This document shows, in pieces, positions 1-59,416 of a DNA stretch of 64,000 nt. The notes beneath the pieces are model-generated. The model had not been told where the DNA came from and made no database searches. It worked only from the letters and a program-made list of their open reading frames with translations. The position numbers and the translations under genes are program-made. This DNA is from Actinokineospora enzanensis DSM 44649 (lineage in GTDB: Bacteria; Actinomycetota; Actinomycetes; Mycobacteriales; Pseudonocardiaceae), in contig NZ_KB894420.1 in the NCBI RefSeq assembly GCF_000374445.1, forward strand, positions 1 through 64,000, written 5' to 3'. Each line of letters opens with the position of its first letter. Position 1 is the first letter of the stretch.

Positions 1-8
1 AGCGACAG

Positions 9-20
9 AAGTTATCCACA
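9..20 (+). repeat. Left AICE attachment site
   Basis: AAGTTATCCACA, with the identical core TATCCACA at 13-20. Bases 1-20 match the reverse complement of 12690-12709 exactly and represent chromosome left of the insertion. The core includes TTATCCACA, the classic DnaA-box sequence. Confidence 0.8.
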
Positions 21-80
21 TTCTTTCCGATACCTCGCCTGAACTGGGGAGATGCGTTTAGTGATCACCGTGGGCCGTCC

Positions 81-1358
81 TCAGGCCGTGAGATGAGGGC
101 TTGGCAGCCATGCCTCAGTCATGGCCCGGCGGATGCGGTGGGGGCTTTCGGGGATGAGGTGGGTGTAGGTGCGGGCGGTGAAGGCCGGGTCAAGGTGGCC
201 CAGGAGGTTCGCCAGCTCGATGAGGCTCACGCCGTGGGCCAGGAGGTTGGATGCGAAGGTGTGGCGTAGGGCGTGGAAGCCGTCGATGCGTTTGCGGTAG
301 GGGGTGGCGGTGGTCTGGAAGGCGGGTACCCAGATGTCCCGGGCGAAGTTGTTCCCGCGCCACACTGGGGGCGGGAAGGGGTGGCGTTGCGACGGCGGAG
401 GTCCGGGGACGAGTAGTCGCACGGTGATGAGGTCTCCATCCGGGACCAGCCACGGCAGGGTGACGTCATATGGTTCGTGAGCGGTGGTGTGGTCGTCAAC
501 CATCGTGATGAAGTCCTCGGTGATGAAGACTTCGCGTGTCTTGCGCCGCTTGGGCAGTCCGAACACGGGCTTCCCGTTGATCCAGCGGATTTGCCGTTGA
601 ATGTGAAGCTTGAGGTTATTTCGGTCCATGTCGTCCGGGCTGAATGCGAGTGCTTCCATTTGGCGGTGTCCGGCACGCAGGGCGATGTCCATCAATGGTC
701 GATACTCCGGAGGGAGGCCGCTACGGATAGTGAGGCACTTTTCCCGAGGCCAGGGCTCCGGCCGGTATTCCTCGGGAACCGGCCTGCGGACGCTGTCAGC
801 CTTGCAAGGGTTTCGTTCGAGCAACCCGTCAAAGACGGCTGCTTGCAGAAATCCCGAGATCGTGTCGAAAATCTGCGCCCGGTAGGAATCCTTTACGCCT
901 CTTCCGCTTGACCAGTCCAGCCACTCTCGCATAGTGCTGGTTGTGAAGTGCTGGACAGGCACGTCGCCGAGGTAGGGCAGGACCATGGTGTTCAACCTGG
1001 TGTCCACACTGGCCACGGCGATCGGGTCTTTGGATCGACCTTTGCGCACTTCCGTTGTGTAGTCCCGGAAGGTGATCAATTTCGGTTCCGGCTTCTCCTC
1101 AGGCTTAGAGGCCGGCAGCAGCTTCACAAGCGGGCTTACCTGGTGCAACGCCAGGAACTTCTCGGCTTCACCCAGGCTGCGGTCCGGGAAGCTCTTGGAC
1201 CGCTCGCTGCCGTCTGCGTAGTAGCGGACACGATAGCGCATACCCGTGCCGTGCAGCGCGGTCTTGTCTTTGAGGGGACGGCCGTTCTTTCCGACAATGA
1301 CGTTCCCGGTCGCATCTTTCCTGTCCTTGTACCAGCGATCCTCAACGTGTCCGGCCAT
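81..1358 (-). CDS. int: Tyrosine site-specific integrase of the AICE
   Basis: 425 aa, a usual length for AICE and phage integrases. The N-terminal 90 or so residues are basic and look like an arm-type DNA-binding region. A SAM-like core-binding domain follows (about 93-185), then the catalytic domain. Catalytic landmarks are the first Arg in RAGHRQMEAL (about 230), a Lys in LPKRRKT, HALRH (about 362-366), LLGHLD (about 388) and the nucleophile Tyr in RTYTHL (about 397). It catalyses integration and, with Xis, excision. The 3' end lies 60 bp from the left att site, the normal position. The excisionase is immediately upstream on the same strand. Confidence 0.95.
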   Translation of the reverse strand: MAGHVEDRWYKDRKDATGNVIVGKNGRPLKDKTALHGTGMRYRVRYYADGSERSKSFPDRSLGEAEKFLALHQVSPLVKLLPASKPEEKPEPKLITFRDYTTEVRKGRSKDPIAVASVDTRLNTMVLPYLGDVPVQHFTTSTMREWLDWSSGRGVKDSYRAQIFDTISGFLQAAVFDGLLERNPCKADSVRRPVPEEYRPEPWPREKCLTIRSGLPPEYRPLMDIALRAGHRQMEALAFSPDDMDRNNLKLHIQRQIRWINGKPVFGLPKRRKTREVFITEDFITMVDDHTTAHEPYDVTLPWLVPDGDLITVRLLVPGPPPSQRHPFPPPVWRGNNFARDIWVPAFQTTATPYRKRIDGFHALRHTFASNLLAHGVSLIELANLLGHLDPAFTARTYTHLIPESPHRIRRAMTEAWLPSPHLTA

Positions 1359-1402
1359 GGGAGTACCCCGTTTTCCTTTCGTCGTGATTGCTGAAATATT
1401 GG

Positions 1403-1606
1403 TCAGGCGGCTAGCTGGCCCTCGGTGCTGGCGTCAAGCCATGCGGCGATATCCTCCGGCCGATAGCGGACATGTTTGCCCATGCGCACGAAGGCCGGAC
1501 CGGTGCCCTTGTGGCGCCATTCGGCCAGCGTCTTCTCCGGCAGCCGCAATAGTTCGGCCAGCTCTTCCGTGGTCCACAATCGGGTCGGTAATCCGCTATC
1601 ATCCAT
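1403..1606 (-). CDS. xis: Excisionase, MerR-like HTH (Xis)
   Basis: 67 aa. A single winged HTH of the HTH_17/excisionase type fills the protein: WTTEELAELLRLPEKTLAEW is helix-turn-helix, followed by the RMGKHVRYRPEDIAAWL wing and helix. It should bind att DNA and direct the integrase towards excision. It lies 44 nt upstream of int and 20 nt downstream of rep, so the three genes probably share a transcript, as in other RepSA AICEs. The acidic N-terminus and short C-tail carry no further domain. Confidence 0.88.
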   Translation of the reverse strand: MDDSGLPTRLWTTEELAELLRLPEKTLAEWRHKGTGPAFVRMGKHVRYRPEDIAAWLDASTEGQLAA

Positions 1607-1626
1607 GGTCTATCCCCCCAGTCCGG

Positions 1627-3237
1627 TCACGCCGCAGTCGCGGTTGCTGAAACACCCGGCCCGCCTGGTGGCCCGGCAGCGGCCAACAACGCCGTGTCGT
1701 ATTCGGCCCGCCAGGTCACGCGTTCGGCTATGGCCCGCATGATCAGGTGGTCTCTCGGCGGGGCGTTACGGTCGCCGGGGGCGAGCCTCCGCCAGGCCCA
1801 GGCCGAGGTATCCCGGGCGGGTTTGACGATCCCCACCGCCGCCAGGGCCTGGGCGACGAACGCGGCCCGGTCGGCCTTGTGATCGGCCAGCGTCTTGCCC
1901 GACCACTTCCGGGACACCAGCACCCGCCGACCTGGCAGGCCGAGGGTGGTGCGTCGGTGAGCGCGTCCCTTGCAGTGCCCGGGGATGGTCCTGGAGGTGG
2001 TGCCCTGGGGGTGGACGCCGTAGAGCAGCCACACCGCGCACCGGGGCGAACAGGGCGTGATCGCGAGTTCGGCGTGGAGTCGTTCGTGGTGGTCACGCTG
2101 GCCGGGAGTGGTGGCGGTGATGATCTCGCCGGTGGACTTCGTGAGGTACTTGGTCAGGTAGCCGATGTGGCGTCCGGCTTCCTCGGTGCCGCCGAGGACG
2201 CCCTTGGAGTGCACCTGGGCGCCGAAGGTGGCGACGTGGGCGGGCTCGTCCACCAGGTCGACCGCGTCCGCCCAGGTGGTGAGCGGTTTCCGAGTCTCCG
2301 GGTCGACGAACGCGGCAGTGTGCGCGTCCCACACCGGCAGCCTGTCGCCGCCGTAGACCGGTTCGTCGTGCGGGGGCCACCACACCTGGAGATAGGTAGC
2401 GGCCGTTACCTGTCGGATCGTGTCGTGCGGGATGGCCCCGCGGATTCCCGCGTGCAAATGAGGTGCTGTTCTGCGCTGGGGTTCGACCGTGGCGAAGTAC
2501 TGCACATCCCACCCGACGACGCGGCGTAGGTTCTGCCACCACCGGTCCACCAGCGAGGCGAAGTGCACCGCGTCCCGGGCCGCCCGCCGATAGTCATAGG
2601 TGCCCGGGTCGACCGGGGAACCATCGGAGCGGACGGGGCCGTAGGTGTCGCAGGTGAGGGTGACGAACATCGAGGGCCGGAACCGCCCAGCGAACTCACG
2701 GCCCACAGTGCGCTTCTCGACCTTGCGCCGGGGCAGGTTCGGGGCATCCTGCCGCCGCCTGGTCGAGCGCACCGGCGCCCTCTTCACCGGGGCCGTGTCC
2801 GGCGACGGCAACCGACCCCGGACACCGAGCCGCTGAAGCTCGGCATCCACCGAGCGGATCTCCTCCCGCAGATCGTCCGCATCGGCCCCGGCGGTGTCCC
2901 GGTACGCGGCCACCAGGTCCGCGCGCAGCTCGACCAACGCCGTGTGATCCCCGGTCGGGGCGGTGTCGCGCGTCTGCGGTTCCTCGGTCAGGTGCCACCC
3001 CTCCCGGCACTGGGCGATCCGCAACGCACGCGCCTTACGGGCACACGGCAGACACACCGACTCGACCGTGGACCCACACGGCACACCCACATAGCGGACC
3101 GCGCCATCGGTGGTGTCGGTGACCTCCATCGTGAACGGCCGCACGCACACCCCGTGCTGTTCGGCGGTGACACGCACGACCTCACGCGCCAGCGGCCCCC
3201 GGGTCCGGGTGGCGATGTCGACGATGTCTGCGGTCAT
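1627..3237 (-). CDS. repSA: RepSA-type rolling-circle replication initiator
   Basis: 536 aa from an ATG that overlaps the stop of the next upstream gene by 4 nt (ATGA), which fixes the start. Features seen: Cys pairs near the N-terminus (C54, C62, C65), a basic stretch at about 130-165, an HUH motif PHLHAG at about 258-263 that would hold the metal, and YLTKYLTKS at about 358-366 carrying the candidate nicking Tyr residues. Known: RepSA proteins of pSAM2-type AICEs nick a double-strand origin and start rolling-circle copying of the excised circle. Further Cys residues (CSPRC, about 400) may form a second zinc site. Confidence 0.88.
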   Translation of the reverse strand: MTADIVDIATRTRGPLAREVVRVTAEQHGVCVRPFTMEVTDTTDGAVRYVGVPCGSTVESVCLPCARKARALRIAQCREGWHLTEEPQTRDTAPTGDHTALVELRADLVAAYRDTAGADADDLREEIRSVDAELQRLGVRGRLPSPDTAPVKRAPVRSTRRRQDAPNLPRRKVEKRTVGREFAGRFRPSMFVTLTCDTYGPVRSDGSPVDPGTYDYRRAARDAVHFASLVDRWWQNLRRVVGWDVQYFATVEPQRRTAPHLHAGIRGAIPHDTIRQVTAATYLQVWWPPHDEPVYGGDRLPVWDAHTAAFVDPETRKPLTTWADAVDLVDEPAHVATFGAQVHSKGVLGGTEEAGRHIGYLTKYLTKSTGEIITATTPGQRDHHERLHAELAITPCSPRCAVWLLYGVHPQGTTSRTIPGHCKGRAHRRTTLGLPGRRVLVSRKWSGKTLADHKADRAAFVAQALAAVGIVKPARDTSAWAWRRLAPGDRNAPPRDHLIMRAIAERVTWRAEYDTALLAAAGPPGGPGVSATATAA

Positions 3238-3680
3238 GGGGTCACGTCCATCGGTGACCCGCCGCCCCAGACGTGGAGCTGTTCCGAACCGAACGTCCTG
3301 CGCTGGTGGGGTTCCATGCCCAGCGTGCCGTCCACGCCCGCCCACACCCTCACCCGTGCACGGCCGTCGGTGAGCGTGCCGATGACCGCCACGTGTGCCG
3401 ATTCGTCGTTGTCCGGCCGCCACACGGACACCACGCAGTCCACCAAGGTGTCGGACCACTCGACGAGATCTCCCACGGTGTCGATCAACCGGCCCCCGTG
3501 CAACTGCACACTGATGTGGGTATCGTCGCCGGATGCGTACCCGGAGACACACAGGTAGGCCGGAACGGGCAGGTCCGCGAACACCACCAGGTGCTCACGA
3601 AGAGAGTCCATGATGGACAGATAGTCGGGGATGTCCACGAGCGCCGTGGGACTGCCGTACACGAGGGTAGTGGTGTTCAT
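3234..3680 (-). CDS. Hypothetical AICE protein between tra and rep
   Basis: 148 aa, not recognised. It is acidic and soluble, without signal peptide or membrane segment. It has a predicted mixed beta-rich character (several V/I-rich stretches) and a C-terminal VWGGGSPMDVTP tail. It overlaps both neighbours by 4 nt: its ATG overlaps the tra stop at 3677-3680 and its stop overlaps the rep start at 3234-3237. Translation is therefore coupled within the tra-rep operon. The position suggests a role in transfer or replication control, but nothing in the sequence says which. Confidence 0.75.
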   Translation of the reverse strand: MNTTTLVYGSPTALVDIPDYLSIMDSLREHLVVFADLPVPAYLCVSGYASGDDTHISVQLHGGRLIDTVGDLVEWSDTLVDCVVSVWRPDNDESAHVAVIGTLTDGRARVRVWAGVDGTLGMEPHQRRTFGSEQLHVWGGGSPMDVTP

Positions 3681-5158
3681 GCTGCTGTTCCTCCGGAGGT
3701 GAAGTCGTCTGTGTCGGGGAACGGGACGATCACGGCAGACCCGCCGGTGATCTCGTTCCGTAGTTCGATCAGGTTCGTGTCGGTGACCAGGAACGCCCTC
3801 GCTCGCACGGGTTCGCGTTGGCCGTCGTGCTTCACCCACGCCACACCAGGAGTCGACTCGGCGATCTCGTGGGCCGCCGCACCGCGCTGGCGGACGCCGT
3901 CACCGAGGACCATGTCCACTTGGGCCGCTTCGTCCAGGCGCATCGCGACCCGGGTGGGGAACAGGTTCCGGAAGGGGACCACTTCCTTGCGCGGGTCCTG
4001 CACGAACCCGACCACGCACACCCCGGGAGCACGGCCCTGCGAGGTGATGACCTGGAGCGCGGCCTGCGCGCGTTCACGCAGCCGCTTGTCCGGCAGATAG
4101 GCGATCAGCGCGGCCAACTCGTCCACGATCAACACCGTGAACGGGACACCGCTGTCCTTGGTCCACGTGCGACGGACACCCCGGAACCGGGTGGCGCGTG
4201 CCCGGACGTCGCTGGCGACCTTCTCCAGAAGCTCCACGGCTTCCTCGGGATCGTCATAGGCCAACTCGGAGAACACCTCCGGGCACTGGCCCAGCTCCAT
4301 ACCGCCCTTGGGGTCGATCCCGACCAGGCGCACCACACCGGCCCTGACCATCGGCGCCAACGCCCAGACCAACGCCCACAGGACCGAGCCCTTGCCCGCA
4401 CCGGTCGCCCCCACCGTGAGCAGGTGGCCGCCCAGCAGCCGCAGGCACCAAGGCTTACCGGTCTCGGTGCGGCCCACCGGGACCTTCTTCAGATTGACCG
4501 TCGCGGCCGTGTCCAGGGCCGGGAGGGGGATCGGGTTGGCCAGCGGGTCGGCCCGCATCAAGTCCAGCTCCAACCGCCCCGGCTTGACCACCCGAACCCG
4601 GCATGAACCGGCGCCGAACGAGTGGGCCAGCCCCGACGCGCGCAGTTCCCACTGCTCCGGCGCCTGCCCTTTGACCATGCGGACCCGCACCCGGTCGCGC
4701 CACCACTCCGAGCGCACCCGCTTGAGCTTGGGCAGGTGCTCCCGGCGACCGGCCTTCCCGGTCAGCGAGGCCAGGCGCATTACCGTGCGCCATTGCCACG
4801 CGTACACCGCCACCCGACGGAACTCCGACCTGGCCCACGCCATCCGACGCGTGAACACATCCGGCGCCTGCCACCACCACACCGCCAACCCCGCGACCAC
4901 GGGGACCACCAGGCCGCCGAGCAACCACCACCCACCGACGTTGCAGACCAGCAGACCCAACACCGCCGAGGCGACCGTGAGCGGGTAGTACCAGCTCATC
5001 CGCACGAACTTCGCCGTCACCCACACCGCAAACCAGACCAGCACCACCGGCAACAGCACGAGCTTGGCCTTGCCCGGCAGCATGGTCCACCACGGCAATC
5101 GGGGCCGTGCGACCTCCAACGGGGCCGGGTCGATCCACCGGCCGTTCCCGCCCTTCAC
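3677..5158 (-). CDS. tra: FtsK/SpoIIIE-like conjugal DNA translocase (Tra)
   Basis: 493 aa from GTG 5158, chosen because it forms a GTGA overlap with the stop of the small upstream gene, in line with every other junction in this operon. The N-terminus has two to three hydrophobic segments (about 20-90), then a linker, then an FtsK-type motor with Walker A GATGAGKGS (about 250-258), GIDPKGGMELG, and Walker B TVLIVDELAAL (about 340-350). Known: a single TraB/TraSA protein of this kind moves double-stranded AICE DNA between mycelial cells. No gamma-like domain for KOPS reading is evident. Confidence 0.92.
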   Translation of the reverse strand: MKGGNGRWIDPAPLEVARPRLPWWTMLPGKAKLVLLPVVLVWFAVWVTAKFVRMSWYYPLTVASAVLGLLVCNVGGWWLLGGLVVPVVAGLAVWWWQAPDVFTRRMAWARSEFRRVAVYAWQWRTVMRLASLTGKAGRREHLPKLKRVRSEWWRDRVRVRMVKGQAPEQWELRASGLAHSFGAGSCRVRVVKPGRLELDLMRADPLANPIPLPALDTAATVNLKKVPVGRTETGKPWCLRLLGGHLLTVGATGAGKGSVLWALVWALAPMVRAGVVRLVGIDPKGGMELGQCPEVFSELAYDDPEEAVELLEKVASDVRARATRFRGVRRTWTKDSGVPFTVLIVDELAALIAYLPDKRLRERAQAALQVITSQGRAPGVCVVGFVQDPRKEVVPFRNLFPTRVAMRLDEAAQVDMVLGDGVRQRGAAAHEIAESTPGVAWVKHDGQREPVRARAFLVTDTNLIELRNEITGGSAVIVPFPDTDDFTSGGTAA

Positions 5159-5349
5159 CACGCACCCCGAGCCGTGGCCTGCGACGGCACCGAAATGGTG
5201 TCGAAAATCAGCGCGAGCATTCCCGCGCACGCCGCGCACTCCACATCCCCCGGCAGCAGACGCGCGTATTTCCCGCATTGACCGCACCGCGTCCGACGAA
5301 CCAGGGTGACCCCCCTTGCGCGACGGGTACGCCTATCCCTTACCATCAT
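5155..5349 (-). CDS. Small zinc-ribbon-like AICE protein
   Basis: 64 aa, basic N-terminus (MMVRDRRTRR), then CGQC at about 22-25 and CAAC at about 38-41, a two-knuckle zinc-ribbon spacing, followed by a hydrophobic stretch. Its TGA overlaps the GTG of tra by 4 nt, which supports both genes. The start is ATG 5349 or 5346; there is no strong Shine-Dalgarno sequence, but an inverted repeat (5375-5423) lies just upstream. Function unknown; DNA or protein binding next to the translocase is plausible. Confidence 0.6.
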   Translation of the reverse strand: MMVRDRRTRRARGVTLVRRTRCGQCGKYARLLPGDVECAACAGMLALIFDTISVPSQATARGAW

Positions 5350-5374
5350 TTTCGTTCACTCCCCCGAGTGGACA

Positions 5375-5423
5375 GTCACAGGAACGGGACGAGGCCGCCA
5401 AACCATTGACCCGTTCCTGTGAC
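5375..5423. repeat. 14-bp perfect inverted repeat upstream of the tra operon
   Basis: GTCACAGGAACGGG (5375-5388) and CCCGTTCCTGTGAC (5410-5423), 21 bp apart. It lies between the stop of the gene at 5508 and the start of the small gene ending at 5349 (minus strand). A 12-bp palindrome ATTATCGATAAT follows at 5481-5492. No U-run supports simple termination. An operator, attenuator or replication/transfer origin hairpin are all possible. Confidence 0.7.
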
Positions 5424-5507
5424 CTAACCCGAAATAGCCCTTCCCTAGGCGCGCGGAATCGTCACACGACCCGCGTGCGAATTATCGATAATCACCCCGC
5501 CGTAGCG

Positions 5508-5945
5508 TCAATGATCGTCCGCGTTCACGTTCCCGTTCGTTGGTGTGTCCAGGTCTTCCGGCCGGTACACGCCGTGGGTGAGCTTGGATAAGGCGACTCC
5601 CGCCGCCCGCGCCGCCGCCTTTCCGGCGTCGGACCACTTCGTGCCCCAGTTGTGTCGCCGGTACCAATGCGCGTCCAGGTCGGCCGCATGCTCCGGCCGG
5701 TACAGGCCGTGCGTGGTCTTCGCCACCACGATGCCCAGGGCCCGCCGAACCGAGGCGGCGAACGCCGTCCAGTTCTCGTACCGACTGTGTTCCAGGTGAT
5801 CCACCTCCGTCCACTTCTCCGGGTCACCCTGGAACGGCCGCCACGCCTTGTTCGCCAACGCCTTCCGCCGCCACCGCCGGTACCCACTGGCACCGACCAC
5901 ACCACAGACGTAGCCCAGGCCCCAGACCCACCGCCGCCGGGTCAT
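5508..5945 (-). CDS. Small membrane-anchored AICE protein, paralogue A
   Basis: 145 aa. Starts with a basic cap and one hydrophobic segment (WVWGLGYVCGVVGASGYRRW, about 6-25), then a soluble region. THGLYRPE and THGVYRPE occur as an internal repeat at about 79-86 and 127-134. The N-terminal half aligns with the protein encoded just upstream (5942-6265): G-Y-V-x-G-V-x-G-A-S-x-Y-R-R-W-R-R and a later FQGD motif. The ATG overlaps that gene's stop by 4 nt. Function unknown. The position in an AICE transfer operon suggests spread proteins, which are typically small membrane proteins; this is inference. Confidence 0.75.
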   Translation of the reverse strand: MTRRRWVWGLGYVCGVVGASGYRRWRRKALANKAWRPFQGDPEKWTEVDHLEHSRYENWTAFAASVRRALGIVVAKTTHGLYRPEHAADLDAHWYRRHNWGTKWSDAGKAAARAAGVALSKLTHGVYRPEDLDTPTNGNVNADDH

Positions 5946-6265
5946 CGCGCCCCCTCGGAGGAATCGGCCGCATCCCGCACGGACAACGGGTTCGCGACGT
6001 CGAGGTTCTCCGGGCGATACAACCCGTACGTCGCCGCCGCGACGCGATACCGGGCCATCTGCCGCCACGCGCACAGGCGCTTCCGCCGATCCTCGAAGAA
6101 GGTGTAATACTCCCAATCCTTATCGGTCCACAAGTTGCAGTCCCCTTGAAACGGCCCAGCGGCCCGAAGCAACCACCGCCGCCGACGCCACCGCCGATAC
6201 AGACTCGCACCGGCCACACCGGACACATAGCCGAACGCCCAGATCGGCACCCGTAACGCCCTCAC
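5942..6265 (-). CDS. Small membrane-anchored AICE protein, paralogue B
   Basis: 107 aa from GTG 6265, which overlaps the upstream stop (GTGA at 6262-6265). N-terminal hydrophobic segment PIWAFGYVSGVAGASLYRRW is followed by a very basic RRWRRRRW cap and by FQGDCNLW, then a single YGLYRPENLD motif. This is the same architecture as the downstream 5508-5945 protein but with one, not two, LYRPE motifs. The pair most likely arose by tandem duplication and divergence. Function unknown, possibly intramycelial spread. Confidence 0.72.
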   Translation of the reverse strand: MRALRVPIWAFGYVSGVAGASLYRRWRRRRWLLRAAGPFQGDCNLWTDKDWEYYTFFEDRRKRLCAWRQMARYRVAAATYGLYRPENLDVANPLSVRDAADSSEGAR

Positions 6266-6867
6266 CGCGAACCTGCCTTCTGTCGCTTCTGCGATCCCTT
6301 GGCCGTCACGTCGGACGTCGACCTGCCCGCACGGCCTGCGGCCACCAACCCGGCAGCAAGCCGGGAACACCGATCTGCCTCGCCAAGCGCCTGGTGGTGA
6401 TGAAACCGGTCGATCTCCGCCACCATCCGGTAATACTCGGCACACGCGGCATAGAAGGCGGCCTGACCCTCGATCGACAATCCCTTGACACCGGCTACGT
6501 TTCGCAGCCGCGCACCGATCAGGGCAAACGATCGGATGGCATCCACACTGGTACCCACACGAATAGCGGGAACCAGATTCGGCCGATTCTCCAACACCTC
6601 ACTGGGAATGGACGCCGGAACAGTCTCCGCCTTCTCCCGCTCACGAGCAGCCCAGTAAAGGGCCTCATGCTGGTGGCCACGGTCCTGAACGGCAATCCGC
6701 TCATAGGCTCGCGCACTCCGACCGAAGAAACTCAACCACTCCCTGGCCGAAGCCTGCACATGCGGACGCACGTGCACTAACGCCACATGCACATCCCGCA
6801 GGATGTCCGCACTCATCGGGTCTAGCTGTACTTCTCCCCCCGACCCCCGTGTGATAGATTGTGACAT
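6262..6867 (-). CDS. Hypothetical AICE protein, helical
   Basis: 201 aa, not recognised. No membrane segment or signal. Predicted mainly helical, rich in Ala, Arg and His (RFHHHQAL near 150), with a basic C-tail (SQKRQKAGSR). It is the first gene of the minus-strand run that continues through the small membrane genes, overlapping the next gene by 4 nt. The ATG at 6867 is preceded by a comparatively AT-rich stretch on the minus strand, so a promoter may lie in 6868-7100. Confidence 0.7.
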   Translation of the reverse strand: MSQSITRGSGGEVQLDPMSADILRDVHVALVHVRPHVQASAREWLSFFGRSARAYERIAVQDRGHQHEALYWAAREREKAETVPASIPSEVLENRPNLVPAIRVGTSVDAIRSFALIGARLRNVAGVKGLSIEGQAAFYAACAEYYRMVAEIDRFHHHQALGEADRCSRLAAGLVAAGRAGRSTSDVTAKGSQKRQKAGSR

Positions 6868-7104
6868 GATTGACCTCTTCCGCTCAGTGGAAGACGCGGC
6901 GGCGAACGGTTTTCAAGGCTTCCCGGCAATGGACCGTTCGACGCTGTGCGCCTCTTAAGCCCCCTCAAAAGCGAAATCTGCTTACGATAGCCAGTCGGGC
7001 GTCGTTTCTTTCGTGCCGCACGCCCTCGAACGCCTGCCCGAAGCGCACGTTCCGGTCACCCCACTCCGAGAACGGGACGACGGCGATGGGGTTCCCGCCA
7101 GTGC

Positions 7105-7563
7105 CTACGCGGCCTTGTTTGGTGCCTCGCTCGCGGACTTCCCCGCCCGAGTACTACCGGCGGCCGGGCTCGCGCCCGCAAACCCCTTGGCCCGGTAGAC
7201 GTAAGACTGGTACTTGAACTCCCCACTGCCCGCCACACGCGGCTCAGCGGTCAGGCCCGCCAGCTCGATCGGCCGCATACCCGGCAGCACCTCCGAGGTG
7301 GACGGGACCGGCTGCACGTCCGCCAGAAACGTGATCTCGAACGACGCCCGCTTCGCGTTGGGCTCGCCCGGGTCGGTGACCTTCGCCTTCCACTGCCGCT
7401 GTCCGGTCTCCTCATCCACCCGCTGGCGAACCGGCCGACCGGACGCCCTGTCCTCCCGTGACTGGTACTCCGTGTCCGGAGCAACCTCGCCGATAAGGAC
7501 GAGGCCCTGCGGGAACGCGTCATCGAAGTTGATCGGGAACCGGTGTCCCTTGCTGATCGCCAT
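7105..7563 (-). CDS. Pra-like AICE activator of replication, integration and excision
   Basis: 152 aa from ATG 7563, with GAGAGG about 11 nt upstream. A longer frame to 7773 would read through the operator palindromes and is unlikely. The pattern FDDAFPQGL...GEV near the N-terminus, then KRASFEITFLADVQPVP, PGMRPIELAGLTAEP and a C-terminal SYVYRAKGF, resembles proteins annotated as plasmid replication, integration and excision activators in streptomycete AICEs. Known: Pra switches on rep-xis-int expression and is itself repressed by a GntR-family KorSA. Here it diverges from a GntR gene across a palindromic operator, which fits that circuit. Family assignment is from memory of motifs. Confidence 0.6.
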   Translation of the reverse strand: MAISKGHRFPINFDDAFPQGLVLIGEVAPDTEYQSREDRASGRPVRQRVDEETGQRQWKAKVTDPGEPNAKRASFEITFLADVQPVPSTSEVLPGMRPIELAGLTAEPRVAGSGEFKYQSYVYRAKGFAGASPAAGSTRAGKSASEAPNKAA

Positions 7564-7621
7564 GGCGTAGGCAGTCCTCTCGCTGGTCGTCAGGTGGGGC
7601 GCTACCCCCTCGTGAAACCAT

Positions 7622-7665
7622 CGTATACGTAGCTTCGTATACGCACAAGTGGTGCGTATACGAAG
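7622..7665. promoter_or_regulatory. Palindromic operator between pra-like and gntR genes
   Basis: Three copies of the palindrome CGTATACG at 7622-7629, 7636-7643 and 7655-7662. The last two sit in a perfect 14-bp inverted repeat, CTTCGTATACGCAC (7633-7646) and GTGCGTATACGAAG (7652-7665), with a 5-nt centre. The site is 59 bp upstream of the Pra-like start and about 70 bp upstream of the GntR start. Likely bound by the GntR protein; binding itself is inference. Confidence 0.75.
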
Positions 7666-7708
7666 GCTGCTACGCCTCCCCCGCGCCATCACGACCAGGG
7701 GTGGCGCG

Positions 7709-7795
7709 GTCGACACCGAAGGAGGATCGGGATCGATGACGGGATCAGGGCCAGGCGGTGGCACGGTGGACACCGAGGGAGGGCCGGGACCGGTG
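7709..7795 (+). repeat. Duplicated translation-start region of gntR
   Basis: Bases 7709-7738 and 7766-7795 are 30-nt imperfect copies (about 24 of 30 match), 57 bp apart and in frame. Each ends in a start codon (ATG 7736, GTG 7793) preceded by a purine-rich ribosome-binding site. Both encode VDTEGG. Confidence 0.7.
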
Positions 7796-8467
7796 CGGGA
7801 GCCCGCCTATGTCTCCATCGCGGGCACGTACGCGCGGCTCATCCGGGGCGGAGACCTGTCGCCCGGGATCCAGTTGCCCAGCCACGCCGAGATGGCGGAA
7901 AAGCACGGCGTGTCGGACATCGTGGTCCGTAAGGCTATGGAGCTACTCAGGAGTCAGGGGCTGGTCCGAACCGTTCGCCGTCGTGGCATCTTCGTCGCAG
8001 ACCGTGCCAACCTCGTGCGCATTTCGCCGGAACGCCAGATGCAGAGCCCGGAAGTGTCATTCGGAGCAGAATCCGAAGAGTCGGTCGACGTTCACCGCGA
8101 AACCGCGCAAGTCTCCGCCACAGACGAACTTGCGGACATCTTCGGAGTTCAGACTGGGGACGAGCTTGTCTATGTCATCACGCGCGTTTCGAGCGGCGGG
8201 CATCCTGTGTCGATCTCGGACACCTATCACCGGGTAGGCGCGAACGGGGCGGCCGGCGCGACCGTTCTAGAGGAAACCCTTGCCGACAAGATGCCGACGA
8301 AGGTCCATGCGGAGTGGTTGCGCACGCCCGTGGGAGCCCTCGTCAAGACGGTACGCCAGGAGTTCCGCGCGGTAGACGGGCAGATGTTGATGATCTCCGA
8401 CATCTCCTACCCGCAAGACCGTTACGACGCGTTTGTGTTCAGAATGAATCTCAATCCTGATTCTTGA
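7736..8467 (+). CDS. GntR-family repressor (KorSA-like)
   Basis: 243 aa from ATG 7736 (AAGGAGG about 10 nt upstream); GTG 7793 with GGAGGG upstream is an alternative giving 224 aa. Winged HTH about residues 25-90: SIAGTYARLIRGGDLSPGIQ, PSHAEMAEKHGVSDIVVRKA, then GIFVA. The C-terminal UTRA-like domain (about 105-240) places it in the HutC subfamily, which binds small ligands. Known: KorSA of pSAM2 is a GntR repressor of pra. This gene is divergent from the Pra-like gene and shares the palindromic operator, so it probably holds the AICE quiescent and controls itself. Confidence 0.9.
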   Translation: MTGSGPGGGTVDTEGGPGPVREPAYVSIAGTYARLIRGGDLSPGIQLPSHAEMAEKHGVSDIVVRKAMELLRSQGLVRTVRRRGIFVADRANLVRISPERQMQSPEVSFGAESEESVDVHRETAQVSATDELADIFGVQTGDELVYVITRVSSGGHPVSISDTYHRVGANGAAGATVLEETLADKMPTKVHAEWLRTPVGALVKTVRQEFRAVDGQMLMISDISYPQDRYDAFVFRMNLNPDS

Positions 8468-8491
8468 GACTGCTGGCCATCCCGCCTGCCT

Positions 8492-8521
8492 GGGCCGGAC
8501 ATCCTGACCGATGTCCGGCCC
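8492..8521. terminator. Convergent terminator hairpin
   Basis: GGGCCGGACATC (8492-8503), 6-nt loop, GATGTCCGGCCC (8510-8521). Perfect 12-bp stem between the convergent gntR and methyltransferase genes. There is no long U-run on either side. Confidence 0.7.
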
Positions 8522-8527
8522 GGACTT

Positions 8528-9364
8528 TCAACGGCGTACCCACCCCTCGGCGACATCGGGAATGTTCCACCATGACACGTGTCGTGAATCCTCCGACTCC
8601 AGTGTCCAGCCGTTCGACAACGCCTCAAAGAACGCATCGTCTCCGGTCATTCCCCCCTTGTGCTGCCCAACGAAGATCAGACGCTCGCCGCCTGCTCTCT
8701 CAAATGCTGCCAGGGCTTCCGATGCCATGGGCGCACCCCAACCTGGAGGCCAGCAGAGCAACAGCACATAGCCCGGCCGACTGGCTACATCCCTGTCGAA
8801 CTCTTCAATATTCCCGACATGATGCCAGGTTTCAATCTGCCCGGTCGCAGGCGAGAAGGAACTATTGTCTTCCTTGTCTGGGGGTGATGAGTCGTACGCC
8901 TGGACACTCACGCCCGCGCGGGTGATCTGTGCCGCCCAGTAGCCCCGGCCCGCTCCGAGTTCGATCATCGGCCTACCTGCACAGAACGCGGCTATCCACT
9001 CTATGGTTTCCGGAGACGGGATCGCATATGCAAATATTCCTTGTAAGAGCATCTGGGCATACGCAAGTCGGCCACTTCCGTTCGAATGGCCAGCATTTAC
9101 TAGCCTGCGCCCGTCGCATTCATGCACAAAGGGCGAAACGATGTCCCAATACGGATTCTCGCTTTCCGTGCGCCCGCCCGTCACATAATGAACGAAGCGT
9201 AGATCGAACGCGTTGTCTATCCGATTATCGCCTGTTCCTGGCAATCCCAGGGCGGTACTCAGATAGTCATCAACTTTCGGATATTCGACCCGAAGGCGTT
9301 CTTCGTCATTCAGCAACGCCGCCAACACCTTCCGGCGTTCCTCTGTCAAGGCAAGCTCGATCAC
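8528..9364 (-). CDS. Class I SAM-dependent methyltransferase-like cargo protein
   Basis: 278 aa from GTG 9364 with AAGGA about 12 nt upstream. Motif I of a Rossmann methyltransferase is clear: MIELGAGRGYWAAQ (about 131-144), with an acidic Asp in VQAYDSSPP for the ribose. Later LLLCWPPGWG corresponds to motif IV, and the C-terminus continues the fold. The first 130 residues are an all-helical extension with no recognised domain. It lies at the right end of the AICE, opposite to its neighbours, and has no role in transfer, so it is likely cargo. Substrate unknown; DNA, RNA, protein or small molecule cannot be separated from sequence. Confidence 0.7.
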   Translation of the reverse strand: MIELALTEERRKVLAALLNDEERLRVEYPKVDDYLSTALGLPGTGDNRIDNAFDLRFVHYVTGGRTESENPYWDIVSPFVHECDGRRLVNAGHSNGSGRLAYAQMLLQGIFAYAIPSPETIEWIAAFCAGRPMIELGAGRGYWAAQITRAGVSVQAYDSSPPDKEDNSSFSPATGQIETWHHVGNIEEFDRDVASRPGYVLLLCWPPGWGAPMASEALAAFERAGGERLIFVGQHKGGMTGDDAFFEALSNGWTLESEDSRHVSWWNIPDVAEGWVRR

Positions 9365-9841
9365 GCCGCCTGTCCTTTCAGATCCGCATTCCTGCCGCTA
9401 TGACTCCAACGCTCATCCACATCGACCACCGTAGGCCCTCTGAGGCGCGCTCGTCACCTGCGACGATCGCGTGATCCCCAGACTGGGCCGTTAGCCCATC
9501 CAACCTTTTGCGCACTTCCAGCGGGGGCAACCTGCGTCGCTCCCGCCGTCTCACCCCCCAGCCCGCACCAGTCAAGACCTTCCCGAGATGCCGACAAGGG
9601 GCGCGCCGCTGGCCCTGCATGTTCGTGGTTGCTGCTGAATCTGGCTCTATGGGATCAAGGCCGCGCCGCCCGCGCGGCGCGGCGCGGTGTGCCTGTCCTG
9701 GTGGCAGGCCGGTCCGTATCCATCGCGCCACAGCGCGGGCTCCCGCTCCGCTTCGCCCGCGCGGGCGCGCGGCACAGCCTGCCACCGGGTCGAGACGCAC
9801 CACACCGCACGGGCGGCGCCGATGCAAACCGACGAGGACCG
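9365..9841. other. Intergenic, no supported gene
   Basis: 477 bp between the methyltransferase and XRE genes of the AICE. A 149-codon minus-strand frame (9378-9827) is basic and proline-rich for most of its length and is not supported. Its last 50 residues look more protein-like, so a short gene near 9378-9530 cannot be fully excluded. Confidence 0.5.
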
Positions 9842-10321
9842 ATGGTTGACACTGACCGGACGCTAGTGCGGCCTGAGCTGCTCCGCTCCGTTGGCCGACA
9901 GCTCAGAAATGCCCGAGAAGACCTGGGATGGACACGGTCTCAGGTGGTCAAGCGGGTCGAGTTCGAGCTGCACGTACAGACCTTGGCGACATATGAGCAG
10001 GGGACTAGGCAATGCACGCTAGGCCGATTCGTCGCGATCTGTCAGGCGCTGGGCGTGTCTGCCCTGGACGTCCTCAAAGATGCAATGGAGCAGACAGAGG
10101 TTCCCCCGCACAAGTTGGTTTGCGCGGTCGACCTGCGAGTGATCATGGCGGGAATTGACCCAGAACTCGAACCGCTACGACGGTGGGCACGTAATCGCCT
10201 CATCGCCGACTCCAAGACGCCCGTGGTGCCACTCGAACCTGACGAGGTCGCGACCCTTGCGATGTTCTGCGGTCTGTCCCATGAAGACTTTTTCCAGCGC
10301 CTCACCGGCGCTGACGGGTGA
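9842..10321 (+). CDS. XRE-family transcriptional regulator
   Basis: 159 aa from ATG 9842. An N-terminal HTH_3 domain (about 10-75) is clear: LLRSVGRQLRNAREDLGWTR, then SQVVKRV, LATYEQGTRQ as recognition helix, and FVAICQALGVSALDVL. The C-terminal half (about 85-155) is helical with acidic patches (EPDEVATLAMFCGLSHEDFF) and no known ligand domain. It is the last gene before the right att site and is transcribed with gntR polarity. Regulators of this type are common in AICEs and may control excision or cargo; the target is unknown. Confidence 0.85.
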   Translation: MVDTDRTLVRPELLRSVGRQLRNAREDLGWTRSQVVKRVEFELHVQTLATYEQGTRQCTLGRFVAICQALGVSALDVLKDAMEQTEVPPHKLVCAVDLRVIMAGIDPELEPLRRWARNRLIADSKTPVVPLEPDEVATLAMFCGLSHEDFFQRLTGADG

Positions 10322-10734
10322 ACGAGCCCGCCGTTCTAGCCCGAGACCGACCTTCGCATAAAGAGCAATGTGGCCTCAGGCGGTCAGGACGCGTTGCCAA
10401 CCTGGTCGGTACCAGGGGCGCCCGCCCCTGGACCCCTGGCACCCGTGGCACGATCCGCGCAGACGTTGATCTGAGCTGCCGTCCGTAGCGCGGATCGCAC
10501 CACGGGAACGTGGAACAGGCTCGCGCACAGCCTTCGATCCGGAGCGAATACCACCCCACGGACCTCAGATCGCGCGCGAGCCCCAGGCCGTTCAGGCCGT
10601 TCCCGACCGACGCCCAGGCCGTCCACAGGCCGTCAGACGTCAGGTACCAGCCGGAAGCAATCGGCATCAACCAGTAAGAACCCGCAGGTCACGACATTGG
10701 CTGCCGCGAACCCCCAGGTGGCGACAGCGTCGAA
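10322..10734. other. Right end of the AICE, no supported gene
   Basis: About 410 bp between the XRE gene and the right att site. Frames at 10302-10670 (122 codons) and 10384-10626 (80 codons), both minus, overlap each other and lack clear ribosome-binding sites. Short direct repeats CAGGCCGTTC/CAGGCCGTCC occur at about 10586-10640. Such att-proximal stretches often hold integrase arm sites. Confidence 0.5.
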
Positions 10735-10746
10735 AAGATATCCACA
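10735..10746 (+). repeat. Right AICE attachment site
   Basis: AAGATATCCACA, one mismatch from the left site. From 10739 onward the sequence continues the interrupted chromosomal repeat (159 of 161 bases match the inverted copy at 12537-12697). The GCGACAG that precedes the left core recurs imperfectly upstream at about 10721-10727. Confidence 0.78.
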
Positions 10747-10899
10747 GTCAAGATCCACACCCCCCGTTTCAAGATCCACCGCCACCCCCGCCCGGTAGAA
10801 TGGGCCCTGGGGGATCCCCCTGGGAGCGGTGGGCTCTGTGTGGGGGCGACTTGCGCGAGGCGCGGGGGCGCGCGTCGGAGCGAGGGGCGATGTCGATCA
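10739..10899 (-). repeat. Intergenic repeat copy A (right part, split by the AICE)
   Basis: 161 bp, 159 identical to the inverted copy at 12537-12697 with no gaps. The remaining 20 bp of this copy are bases 1-20 on the other side of the AICE. Contains CCATTCTAC on the complementary strand and a GGGGGATCCCCC palindrome. Confidence 0.9.
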
Positions 10900-11109
10900 G
10901 GCCGGGAACCGCGTGAACTTGAGCCCGTCAGGCGCGGACATGCCCACTTGGTCGAGGACGCGACGAAGATCAATTCGCGAGCCCGTAGATAGCCGCCTGG
11001 TACAGACATGCTTTGCCGCGAGTGTTGGTCAAGGGCGTGCCGCGATGTCGCTCAAGCCGGACAGCATGACGTGCCTCAGCAGTGCGACCTGGAGCGTCCT
11101 CCGGCGAGG

Positions 11110-11286
11110 TCACCAGTGTTCGGCGCGAAGCTTGCCCTCGATGTCCCGCACATGTCGGCGCGCACAGGTCGGGCACAACCAGCGAGGGCCGCGTTCGTCC
11201 TGTTCCGTCACCCAGGACAACGCTTCCAGCGCGGTCGCCTCGGTGCGGGAGCGGCCGCAGAGAGCACAAGCCGGGTCTTCGGTCAT
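11110..11286 (-). CDS. 58-aa zinc-ribbon protein
   Basis: Start ATG 11286, stop TGA 11110-11112. The protein begins MTEDPACALCGRSRTE and has CALC at residues 7-10 and CPTC at 38-41, followed by ARRHVRDIEGKL, a four-cysteine zinc ribbon of a kind common as small conserved hypothetical proteins in actinomycetes. Codon use is typical for the chromosome, with GC-rich third positions. It lies 11 nt downstream of the methyltransferase gene (stop 11298) on the same strand, so the two are probably co-transcribed. Function unknown. Confidence 0.75.
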   Translation of the reverse strand: MTEDPACALCGRSRTEATALEALSWVTEQDERGPRWLCPTCARRHVRDIEGKLRAEHW

Positions 11287-11297
11287 GGTCGATCAGG

Positions 11298-12161
11298 CTA
11301 CGCCGCGTGGCCGAGGTGCACGGTGGACGCATTGAGCACGAAGACGTCGTCGCGGGCGGCGACCCAGTCGGGGCCGTCTCGTGTGAGCAGGCGTTCGAGG
11401 ATGTCGCGGTCGGATTCAGGCAGGCGGTCGGCGCCGACGGCGGCGAGCCATGCCAGCCAGTCCGCGACCGACTCCCGAACCTGCTCGGTGGCCGGTGCGG
11501 GCAGGTCGACCAGGTAGCTGAACGCGGTCACATCGCGCAGCCCGACGTCGGTCAACGCGCGGTTCCAGCCGATCGGCAGGCGGACCGCGCCGTCGATGGC
11601 CGCGCGCATGTCGGCGAACCAGGCGTTGCGGGCGGCGACGAGCCGGTCCTGCAGGCCCGGCTCGCCGATGCCGAGATCCCACGGCAGACAGTGCGTGTGC
11701 AGTCCACCTTCGCTGAGCGCGAGCTGTCCACCCGGGCGCAGCAGCCGCGCCAGCCCCGCGAGACCCGCCAGCTGGTCGGGCAGGTGGTGCACGATCCGCG
11801 ACGCCCACACGAGATCGGCGGCGGGTACGAACTCGGCCAACCGTGGTTCGGCGGCGTCCGCGCGCACGGCGACGACCTCGACCTTGTCGACCGCCCGCAC
11901 CTGCTCGACCGCCACCGCCTGCAACTCCGGCACCGCGTCGACCAACACGACCCGTCCACCACCCCGCGCGGCGAGCGCGGCCGCCAACGCGACGGCCATG
12001 CCACCCGTGCCGGAACCGACATCAACGACCGTGGCCCCCGCAGGCAGCGAATCGACCAACCGCCGCGCGACCCAGCCATTGACCTCGGCCTCGATCGCAT
12101 CGGTCCGCCGCATCACCGCGACCCGCTTGGCCCAGTCGATCCCGTCATGCGTGTGCACCAT
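11298..12161 (-). CDS. Class I SAM-dependent methyltransferase
   Basis: 287 aa from ATG 12161 (the open frame extends to 12407, but that extension lacks protein-like sequence). Motif I VVDVGSGTGGMAVALA (about 46-61), acidic VVLVDAVPELQ, then RADAAEPRLAEF and ADLVWASRIVHHLPDQ, and LLRPGGQLALSEGG: a complete Rossmann methyltransferase of the Methyltransf_11/25 type. The C-terminal third (about 190-287) is a helical substrate-side region. It sits with the zinc-ribbon gene between two inverted repeat copies. Substrate unknown; small-molecule methylation is the usual role of this subfamily. Confidence 0.85.
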   Translation of the reverse strand: MVHTHDGIDWAKRVAVMRRTDAIEAEVNGWVARRLVDSLPAGATVVDVGSGTGGMAVALAAALAARGGGRVVLVDAVPELQAVAVEQVRAVDKVEVVAVRADAAEPRLAEFVPAADLVWASRIVHHLPDQLAGLAGLARLLRPGGQLALSEGGLHTHCLPWDLGIGEPGLQDRLVAARNAWFADMRAAIDGAVRLPIGWNRALTDVGLRDVTAFSYLVDLPAPATEQVRESVADWLAWLAAVGADRLPESDRDILERLLTRDGPDWVAARDDVFVLNASTVHLGHAA

Positions 12162-12536
12162 GCACCCCACGCTAGGCGGCCCCGTCCGGAACCGCGCACC
12201 CATGATCAGGCACCCGCACCGCGCAGCCACCACCGACTCTCGCCCGGCGGTCGCCCACGTCTTGGTCGACATCGCAGCCGCGCGCAGAGACCACCGCCCC
12301 ATCACGCCCCCACGCGCACCGACGATCAAGCCGTTCATCATGATCCGCCCGCCGCCCACGTGCGGGATCGGATCCCCTCCTGATAGCACGGCCACTACGA
12401 CAACCATCGCGACAGCGCACCTCCCCCTTCAGGAGCAGGTAGCCGCACGCCCGACAACTGCACGACCAATCTGAACGGCTCGCTGTGTTCGCTGGCCGCA
12501 GTGCGATCGACTCACCGCTTGATCGCCCTCACCGCT
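12162..12536. other. Intergenic upstream of the methyltransferase gene, no supported gene
   Basis: 375 bp. It holds a short tandem repeat, CTCACCGCTTGATCG twice at about 12510-12542, and presumably the methyltransferase promoter. No credible frame on either strand. Confidence 0.6.
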
Positions 12537-12711
12537 TGATCGACATCGCCCCTAGCCCCGACGCGCGCCCCCGCGCCTCGCGCAAGTCGCCCCCACACAG
12601 AGCCCACCGCTCCCAGGGGGATCCCCCAGGGCCCATTCTACCGGGCGGGGGTGGCGGTGGATCTTGAAACGGGGGGTGTGGATCTTGACTGTGGATAACT
12701 TCTGTCGCTGG
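12537..12711 (+). repeat. Intergenic repeat copy B (intact)
   Basis: Inverted relative to copy A and 98.8% identical over 161 bp, plus 20 of 20 to bases 1-20. Carries TGTGGATAA (12690-12698), a DnaA-box match, within the sequence used as AICE target. It ends 20 bp from the stop codon of the AarF-like gene. Confidence 0.9.
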
Positions 12712-12730
12712 GGTGGGTGAAAAGCTGGGG

Positions 12731-14047
12731 TCAGTCTTCGTCGGCGAAGCCGGGTTGCCAGTGGGTGATGATGTCTCGCATGGAGAACTCGGCGTCCAGT
12801 TGGCAGAGGATGCCGGTGGCGCCCGCGGTCACGCGCTGGATGAGCAGGTATTGCGGGGGCAGGTTCAGGGAGCGGCCGGTTTTGAAGTCCTGGCCGCGTA
12901 GGTCGCCGACGCGTTCGCCCTGGCGTTGCATCCAGCGGCGGGTGAAGTGGAAGCGGTCGACCGAGGCGGGTTCGATGAACGGGGCCAGGTAGGCCAGGAC
13001 GTGGTCGGGGTCCAGGCGCATGCCGGGGCGGATGAAGCCCTCGTCGCGCATGAGTTCCATCAGTTCGGCGGAGTGGCCCTGGAGGGACAGGCGGGTCATC
13101 ACGCCGAGGGGGCGGGGGAGGCCCTCGGGAAGGCGGGCGACGGCGCCGAAGTCGAGGACGCAGAGGCGGTCGTCGGGGGTCATCATGAAGTTGCCGGGGT
13201 GCGGGTCGGAGTGCAGCAGGCCCGCGCGGGCCGGTGAGGAGAAGTGGAACTCCGACAGGAGCCGACCAGCGCGGTCGCGTTCGTCGCGGGTGCCGTTGCG
13301 GATGATCGTGGCGAGGGGGCGGCCGTCGACCCATTCGGTGATGGTGACCTTGGGGGCGCTGGCCAGCACGCGCGGGACCAGGACCTGGTCGTCGCCGGCG
13401 AAGGCATTGGCGAAGGCGCGCTGGTTGTCGGCCTCGGCGCGGTAGTCGAGCTCCTCGGTCATCCGGTCGGCGAGCTCCTGCAGCAGCGGCTTGATCTCCA
13501 TGCCCGGCGCGAACGGCTGGAACAGCCTGCTGAACCGCTGCAGCTGGCGCAGGTCGGACAGCAGGGCCTCGTCCGCGCCCGGGTACTGGACCTTGACCGC
13601 GACCTGTCTGCCGTCGTGCCATACCGCCTTGTGCACCTGGCCGATGCTGGCCGCGGCAGCCGGGCGGTCGTCGAAGTCGGTGAACCGGCTCGACCAGTTG
13701 CGGCCGAGCTGCTGGGCCAGCACCCGGTGCGTGGCCTGGGTGCTCATCGGCGGGGCCGCCGCCTGCAGCTTGGTCAACGCCTCCCGGTAGGGCTCGGCGA
13801 GCTCGTCGGGCACCGCGGCCTCGAACACCGACAGCGCCTGGCCGAACTTCATCGCGCCGCCCTTGAGCTGCCCGAGCACCTCGAACAGCTGCTCGGCGGT
13901 GCGCGCCGACAGCTCCGCGCTCACCTGCTCGGCGCTCTGCCCGGCCAGCCGCTTCCCCCAGCCGCCGACGGCCCGGCCCGCGACGCCCAGCGGAATGCTG
14001 GCCAGTCGGGCCGTGCGCGCGACGGTCTTGCGTGGCATCTCGGTCAC
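12731..14047 (-). CDS. ABC1/AarF (UbiB)-family protein kinase-like protein
   Basis: 438 aa from GTG 14047, giving the family-typical N-terminus VTEMPRKTVARTARLASIPL; ATG 14038 is possible. The UbiB/ADCK signature is seen: KxGQ motif GAMKFGQALS (about 68-77), Ala-rich AAASIGQVHKA, catalytic Lys in VAVKVQYPG (about 152), LLHSDPHPGNFM as the catalytic loop (about 275-286) and metal-binding DFGAVARLP (about 296-304). No membrane segment is obvious. Known: UbiB-family members support quinone biosynthesis or lipid handling through ATPase activity. In actinomycetes its role is unknown; the ThiF-like and metallopeptidase neighbours are a conserved set. Confidence 0.9.
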   Translation of the reverse strand: MTEMPRKTVARTARLASIPLGVAGRAVGGWGKRLAGQSAEQVSAELSARTAEQLFEVLGQLKGGAMKFGQALSVFEAAVPDELAEPYREALTKLQAAAPPMSTQATHRVLAQQLGRNWSSRFTDFDDRPAAAASIGQVHKAVWHDGRQVAVKVQYPGADEALLSDLRQLQRFSRLFQPFAPGMEIKPLLQELADRMTEELDYRAEADNQRAFANAFAGDDQVLVPRVLASAPKVTITEWVDGRPLATIIRNGTRDERDRAGRLLSEFHFSSPARAGLLHSDPHPGNFMMTPDDRLCVLDFGAVARLPEGLPRPLGVMTRLSLQGHSAELMELMRDEGFIRPGMRLDPDHVLAYLAPFIEPASVDRFHFTRRWMQRQGERVGDLRGQDFKTGRSLNLPPQYLLIQRVTAGATGILCQLDAEFSMRDIITHWQPGFADED

Positions 14048-59306: not shown

Positions 59307-59338
59307 AAAAAGAAATGCCCCCACCCTTCCCGGGGGCA
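59307..59338 (-). terminator. Rho-independent terminator of the pucR gene
   Basis: On the minus strand: TGCCCCC, loop, GGGGGCA stem (59316-59322 and 59332-59338) followed by TTTCTTTTT (complement of 59307-59315). Confidence 0.85.
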
Positions 59339-59416
59339 CCCCTCGTGGCCATTCTATCGGGGGTGGGGTGGGAATAGGGGCGGTTTGATCTTGGCTGTGG
59401 ATAACTTCTGTCGCTG
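59316..59416 (+). repeat. Intergenic repeat copy C (diverged)
   Basis: Shares 22 consecutive bases with copy B (59395-59416 against 12689-12710), including TGTGGATAA, plus the CCATTCTA block (59349-59356) and GATCTTG. Like copy B it ends about 25 bp from the stop of a minus-strand gene. Confidence 0.8.

Follow-up and report, generated by a model that had tools for sequence, protein, structure and literature searches.

Actinomycete integrative and conjugative elements (AICEs) that encode a tyrosine integrase reside in their vast majority at the 3' ends of tRNA genes, with the pSLS subfamily as an exception (Ghinet 2011, PMC3218068; this and the other published accounts cited are represented here by excerpts). 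A survey of integrative and conjugative elements and AICEs in Streptomyces counted 36 insertion sites at tRNA genes, as against 14 in protein-coding genes and a single intergenic one, and proposed integrase exchange as a route to new sites (PMC9513070). Here we analyze a 64,000-nt stretch of the genome of Actinokineospora enzanensis DSM 44649 (the window; contig NZ_KB894420.1, here C18), whose bases 1–10746 are in all likelihood a pSAM2-type AICE with a tyrosine integrase that targets a short site in a dispersed chromosomal repeat. The element resembles pSAM2-type AICEs in combining Int, Xis, a RepSA-type Rep, TraB and a GntR regulator on about 11 kb with a core and candidate arm sites, but differs from them in its target, a dispersed repeat, in its 8-base core and in its presence in two copies (PMC3218068). 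The nearest precedent for a repeat as target is the prophage phiRv1 in REP13E12, where attB also lies in a repeated chromosomal sequence; phiRv1 is phage-like and employs a serine recombinase, in contrast to the tyrosine integrase found here (PMC9317374). Conjugative and mobilizable transposons of Prevotella intermedia occur in several identical copies per genome and use a short specific att sequence, so multi-copy conjugative elements as such are already known. Our element shares with them the multiplicity of a conjugative element in one genome and a short element-specific att; they belong, however, to another phylum and element type, and their att is not called a dispersed repeat in the excerpt, although the paper describes one (PMC4755523).

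The window comprises bases 1–64000 of C18 (148,780 bases), part of a draft genome of 8.12 Mb in 87 contigs. Its base 1 is the first base of the contig, which limits the left flank inside the window to 20 bases. When bases 1–20 are joined to 10747–10899, the resulting 173 bases align without a gap to the reverse complement of 12537–12709, with identity at 171/173 positions and mismatches at joined positions 153 and 156, and chance is not a credible source of this match. attL (1..20, + strand), which is also the contig start, consists of the left half of the split repeat, AGCGACAGAAGT, and the core TATCCACA at 13–20. The core recurs at 10739–10746 within the attR core region TCGAAAAGATATCCACA (10730..10746, + strand), a sequence found genome-wide, with up to one mismatch, only at three right ends of the AICE. 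The split repeat resumes at 10747..10899 (+ strand) with its right half, which contains TAGAATGG and GGGGGATCCCCC; an intact inverted copy lies at 12537..12709 (− strand) and a third, diverged copy (75%) at 59320..59415 (− strand). The element is thus flanked by 8-base direct repeats and has precise boundaries, which are equal in two insertions. The window has no tRNA gene closer than 12 kb to the right end of the element, the nearest beginning at 22763, and none was found in the fetched stretches of the contigs carrying the other copies (L091, L092, L093); the element accordingly lacks the tRNA 3'-end attB of tRNA-targeting AICEs. A preliminary description of this DNA had claimed the gapless re-joining, the duplicated core with exact ends and an intergenic repeat, rather than a tRNA gene, as target; all three hold. 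The intact copy to which it pointed at 12537–12709 is confirmed, but that copy and the split one belong to a larger repeat family; the presence of several copies of the element and the contig edge at base 1 had escaped it.

That the element entered this repeat more than once follows from its other copies. The integrase is present in three identical copies in the genome, and the whole of 1–10746 recurs without a single difference in contigs C24 and C65; C24 ends exactly at the core, and the first difference between C18 and C65 falls at 10747. The 20 bases of attL reappear at C24:122172–122191, at C65:1–20 and, reversed, at C67:1–20. Left flanks are unrelated between C24 and C67, which differ just before the 20-mer, and right flanks are unrelated between C18 and C65, which differ just after the core; all four flank halves belong to the repeat, and outside it the two insertions share no related flanking sequence. 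With two left and two right flanks, unrelated to each other in either case, the element must have inserted at least twice, each time into a different repeat copy but at an identical position. A third insertion was not counted because an assembler may copy one repeated unit into several paths. As to which ends belong together, the corresponding loci of 12/15 genus relatives have the counterpart of a 159-aa gene from C67 next to that of the window's ABC1 kinase gene (among the three loci lacking it, L127 and L132 reach a contig end and L134 does not), a gene order by which C67 and C18 flank one insertion. The nearest genes of the C24/C65 site had no relatives in the other 15 genus genomes at cut-offs of 1e-50 and 1e-30. 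At the first site, inspection of the 15 genus relatives over at most 1.5 kb to either side of the kinase gene showed the repeat in none of them; intact repeat copies elsewhere in the same genome served as the reference for an empty site.

Two ways of obtaining this picture from a single integration have to be considered. One is an assembly artefact, in which the second flank pair of one real insertion was mis-joined through the repeat. The assembly is indeed a draft, and the 20-mer forms the very start of C18, C65 and C67, but all nine other exact copies of the 20-mer are internal to contigs, with flanking sequence to the left and right, and both right flanks carry the full 10,746-base element, which leaves this explanation with little probability. 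The other concerns recombination between repeat copies. In eight of the relatives' loci, the 159-aa gene and the kinase gene have a methyltransferase relative between them, whose strand orientation is in all eight opposite to that of the methyltransferase gene of the window (11298–12407). The latter is enclosed by near-identical inverted repeats (10735–10899 and 12537–12709), an arrangement that indicates, from sequence comparison, an inversion between the repeats. Since repeat copies thus seem to recombine, homologous recombination or segmental duplication involving them might have carried a single integration to a second site. However, exact homology outside the element amounts to 12 bases left of the core and to none directly right of it, and we rate such a spread as no more probable than the artefact.

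The assignment of the element to the AICEs, already made in the preliminary description, is supported by its gene content, which predicts a small pSAM2-type AICE of ~10.7 kb. The first Pfam scan covered ten proteins, nine of them from open reading frames (ORFs) of the element. On the − strand, a tyrosine integrase of 425 aa (81..1358; PF00589, E = 8e-11; phrog_1 integrase, E = 3e-37; identical copies in C24 and C65) is followed by an Xis-like excisionase of 67 aa (1403..1606; PF12728 HTH_17, E = 5e-13), a RepSA-type replication initiator (1627..3552; PF20199 RepSA, E = 4e-99; true start probably internal) and a TraB-like FtsK/SpoIIIE DNA translocase (3677..5287; PF01580, E = 4e-15; genus relatives 60–71% identical). 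The translocase matched NF041214 (plasmid_TraB) weakly, with 34.6 bits against a cut-off of 800, and PF01580 above its cut-off. Recombinase plus excisionase, RepSA-type replication protein and FtsK/SpoIIIE-like TraB translocase, the proteins by which an AICE is recognized, are hence all present. The same inventory bears on the idea that the short identical 8-base flanks are a target duplication left by DDE transposition: no transposase family was detected among the scanned element proteins (Pfam, NCBIfam, PHROG), both targets were hit at the same position, and Int, Xis and symmetric attP arms lie next to the ends, so that we give this idea next to no credence. The recombinase being a tyrosine integrase, the element is also not of the phiRv1-like kind with a serine recombinase.

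The target is a genuine repeat family. BLAST returned 35 matches in the own genome, two of which are the right junctions of the AICE, and matches in 12/16 genus genomes, own included. The left 20-mer (≤2 mismatches) has 32 matches, four of them AICE-linked, and its control none; independently of any selection by the 20-mer, the 3'-half motif TARAATGG-N2-7-GGGGNTCCCC has 43 matches in the genome, its reversed-pattern control again none. Contexts were read for 39 of the 43 (three on C35 and one on C52 were left out), and 36 contained NT(A/G)TCCACA 40–65 bases upstream of the 3' motif, or 34/37 when the two AICE junctions are excluded. In the main subfamily, 26 of 28 contexts keep the left half GCGACA...T(A/G)TCCACA, and the sole two without it are the AICE right junctions; hence, no other element splits the repeat in this sample. 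The left-half pattern had been loosened to fit copies already seen, and conservation of the 20-mer in alignment A1 is circular, as its 26 copies were picked by the 20-mer. The repeat further holds a −10-like TAGAAT and the palindrome GGGGGATCCCCC. A consensus RNA fold of 26 copies comprises 15 pairs, two with changes on both sides, and because of this scant covariation we do not claim an RNA structure; Rfam over 10400–13000 gave one match, with E = 0.64, far under the gathering score and not within the repeat. A conceivable affiliation of the repeat is with HNH/REP13E12-type genes. L277 (C15:30.7–31.7 kb), L279 (C17:4.0–4.5 kb), L092:15.1–15.3 kb and L103 also contain related modules carrying TTrTCCACA boxes, several of them in arrays with a spacing of mostly 64–97 bases and some larger gaps; some carry TAGAATGGATNTCGGGGGTCCCC and represent a second repeat subfamily.

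According to the preliminary description, the core of the repeat equals a DnaA box, and this equality stands. The DnaA box of Actinoplanes has been given as TT(G/A)TCCACa (PMC3364876). Between dnaA (found by PF08299) and the next downstream ORF of our genome, TTATCCACA and TTGTCCACA occur twice each and TTCTCCACA once, and the core of the repeat conforms to the same TT(G/A)TCCACA. The box of the repeat varies between TTATCCACA (or CTATCCACA) and TTGTCCACA; four of the 28 20-mers unlinked to the AICE have TTGTCCACA, the same A/G choice as in the dnaA region. Could Int, alone or guided by DnaA, then target the DnaA box itself, with the repeat mattering only as its carrier? The identity of the core with TTATCCACA, the two TTATCCACA and two TTGTCCACA downstream of dnaA and the box at the expected place in nearly all repeat contexts would suit this explanation. 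Yet the genome has 184 TATCCACA sites (reversed control pattern: 47), and after removal of the AICE ends and restoration of the two old sites, 26/179 lie in the repeat (≤2 mismatches), so that a pair of blind choices would land there both times with p ~0.02. In addition, the outer bases AGCGACAGAAGT are common to both insertions, and attP has ATATCCACA, an imperfect box. Because both insertions hit the repeat with identical left 20 bases despite 184 available sites, recognition probably reaches beyond the box, and targeting of the box itself appears quite unlikely to us, if slightly less so than the two single-integration scenarios. Of the earlier proposal that the integrase uses a repeat with a DnaA-box core, the repeat target and the core equality therefore remain, whereas recognition of the box as such is unsupported in view of the 184 sites. 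A more far-reaching idea, unlikely though somewhat less so than targeting of the box alone, is that the AICE is an intragenomic spreader whose attB sites are genus-wide DnaA-binding modules (DnaA box, TAGAAT, GGGGGATCCCCC), with DnaA occupancy gating which copies are open. If true, integration would be linked to the replication cycle, with every insertion uncoupling a box from its module.

The ends of the element have an organization suited to site-specific recombination. Four copies of CAGGCCGT at 10584, 10593, 10615 and 10626 (10584..10633, + strand) are candidate arm-type integrase sites, and a fifth on the same strand lies at 82–89, at the very end of the integrase gene. On either strand, the 8-mer has two more occurrences in the element (5703, 6331) and eight in the window's remaining 53 kb; what is unusual is therefore the cluster. 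Their candidacy as arm sites derives from the homologues, where ACGGCC-type motifs trail the integrase stop in 44/56 flanks. attP, obtained by joining the element ends, reads TCGAAAAGA-TATCCACAT-TCTTTCCGA, i.e., two arms that agree in 8/9 bases around a 9-base spacer; arm-like positions scoring ≥8 with spacers of 7–9 number 14/10,716 in the element, in a scoring test made after the arms had been spotted by eye. Symmetric arms around a short spacer are the layout of a tyrosine-recombinase core site, for which reason we place strand exchange in the core. attL keeps the full TTATCCACA, while attR, like attP, carries ATATCCACA and no perfect box; integration also severs the box from the repeat's 3' half.

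Taken together, these features suggest a pathway in which the tyrosine integrase recombines attP with the short site inside the dispersed repeat, strand exchange presumably taking place within TATCCACA, while Int would bind the core arms TCGAAAAGA and TCTTTCCGA and the outer CAGGCCGT arm sites. Xis would drive excision, and the excised circle may replicate via Rep, be transferred as double-stranded DNA via TraB, and re-integrate at any similar repeat that is still free, of which there are about two dozen (24 with a TATCCACA core). With that number of free targets, the element could accumulate within one chromosome. For phiRv1, several REP13E12 copies can serve as attB.

How a pSAM2-type backbone may have come to use such a target can be approached through its relatives. 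TraB has matches in 115/390 family genomes, own included (E ≤ 1e-80), and 16 backbone loci from the genus were sampled. Seven of these lie at tRNA genes (Ala, Pro, Gly, Ser, Lys, Lys, Lys) with direct repeats of 42–78 bp, and their Rep and TraB are 72–83% and 60–69% identical to ours (tblastn). L230 has a tRNA-Tyr in the stretch, and no direct repeat was found there; in the stretches of the other eight there is no tRNA, and three of these eight hold integrase relatives (33–37%) beside direct repeats of 20, 37 and 53 bp. Our integrase had no match (E 1e-5) in six of the seven tRNA-site loci and a 23% match in the seventh (L235). Sister backbones at tRNA genes that lack a close relative of the integrase suggest a swap of the integrase to one with a short multi-copy target, and the backbone thus probably gained its integrase by module exchange. 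An identical AICE at a tRNA gene, which the preliminary description had named as a refutation, was not found, the tRNA-site backbones being neither identical nor equipped with a close integrase relative. The exchange of integrases proposed in the Streptomyces survey fits this situation, and its excerpt mentions no repeat target (PMC9513070).

The best relatives of the integrase in the 390 family genomes reach 46% identity, and none of the first 29 integrase loci has a tRNA within ~1.5 kb on either side. Direct repeats were sought at 39 integrase loci, a selection of the listed matches (G219:C20 was left out, and two were cut at contig ends). Att repeats were accepted (≥14 bases near the integrase) at 23/39 loci, another 14 had shorter ones or none, and the 14- and 15-base repeats of L159 and L194 were judged too doubtful to accept. 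Automatic classing of targets by flank motif failed for 31/56 homologues, and the targets named here come from Pfam, Rfam or inspection by eye: the 3' ends of an aldehyde dehydrogenase gene (L163, PF00171) and an acyl-CoA dehydrogenase gene (L176, PF00441), the interior of an epoxide hydrolase gene (L170, PF06441) and the RNase P RNA gene rnpB (L191; RF00010 at 11106–11527), the last with direct repeats of 28 and 31 bases. Genome G154 offers a parallel. There, one AICE with a related integrase (42–44%) occurs in two copies (L171, L172), with identical integrases and 98.9% agreement over 10,665 aligned columns, inside two similar genes and with an exact 14-bp core; the L171 target is an S15 peptidase by a marginal Pfam score (24.3 bits; cut-off 23). 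Short core and two copies per genome are common to both systems, but the targets in G154 are two similar coding genes and that of our element is an intergenic repeat. In the integrase tree, our integrase grouped with a clade of 15 (support 93/90), its position being unsure because of its very long branch (1.74); L170 and the two G154 elements, all in gene interiors, carry integrases of this neighbouring clade. A short core and two copies per genome hence have precedent in the clade of the integrase, while an intergenic repeat as target has none among the loci examined. Beyond the family genomes, viral contigs held no relatives of the integrase, seven plasmid records did (best 36%), and a set of genome contigs yielded 14 integrase loci with 36–39% identity by short peptide patterns, which may miss distant ones.

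Several observations weigh against an AICE targeting a dispersed repeat, or against parts of the argument for it. The assembly showed neither an excised circle nor an attP or an empty site, the attR 17-mer being confined to the three right ends, and att identity spans only 8 bases, as opposed to 42–78 at the tRNA sites of backbone relatives. In a draft genome of 87 contigs, collapse may account for part of the identity between the copies, and only elimination links C24 with C65. C67 stops exactly at the last core base (C67:1–20, L093), which could stem from overlap trimming or from a mixed population with empty sites. Finally, as regards integrases, the tRNA-site loci were characterized only through matches to ours.

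The remainder of the element is occupied by smaller genes. Two small ORFs of the − strand (5508–6116 and 5942–6445; together 5508..6445) overlap and are, by eye, mutually similar in a YRRWRR...FQGD region, perhaps through tandem duplication; the first has no Pfam or NCBIfam match, and neither matches PHROG. They are followed by an AMED_5909 family protein (6262..6867, − strand; NF041510, E = 7e-34) and an ORF kept in genus backbone relatives (7105..7773, − strand; matches in 11/16 backbone loci, 30–84% identity). A GntR-family regulator is encoded on the + strand (7649..8467; PF00392, E = 2e-12; true start probably internal), in what we take to be a KorSA-like position. Toward the right end lie an ORF with a SAM-binding-like motif, noted by eye (8528..9364, − strand; phrog_19090 of unknown function, E = 6e-31), and an XRE-type helix-turn-helix regulator (9629..10321, + strand; PF13560, E = 5e-10; true start probably internal).

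A literature search of open-licence papers revealed no AICE in a dispersed repeat; what is new, as read from the sequence, is a predicted AICE with well-defined boundaries in a multi-copy repeat, inserted at least twice, its excision likewise being a prediction. In most described AICEs, each integrase is tied to a single chromosomal site. With a multi-copy attB, one element could instead accumulate in the chromosome, linking conjugation with transposon-like spread, and would place large homologous blocks at many loci, with the unused repeats forming a ready multi-copy landing platform. For the wider family, the series of targets seen on related elements (tRNA genes, gene ends, gene interiors, rnpB and now a repeat) would provide material for studying the ways in which tyrosine integrases switch to other and shorter targets.

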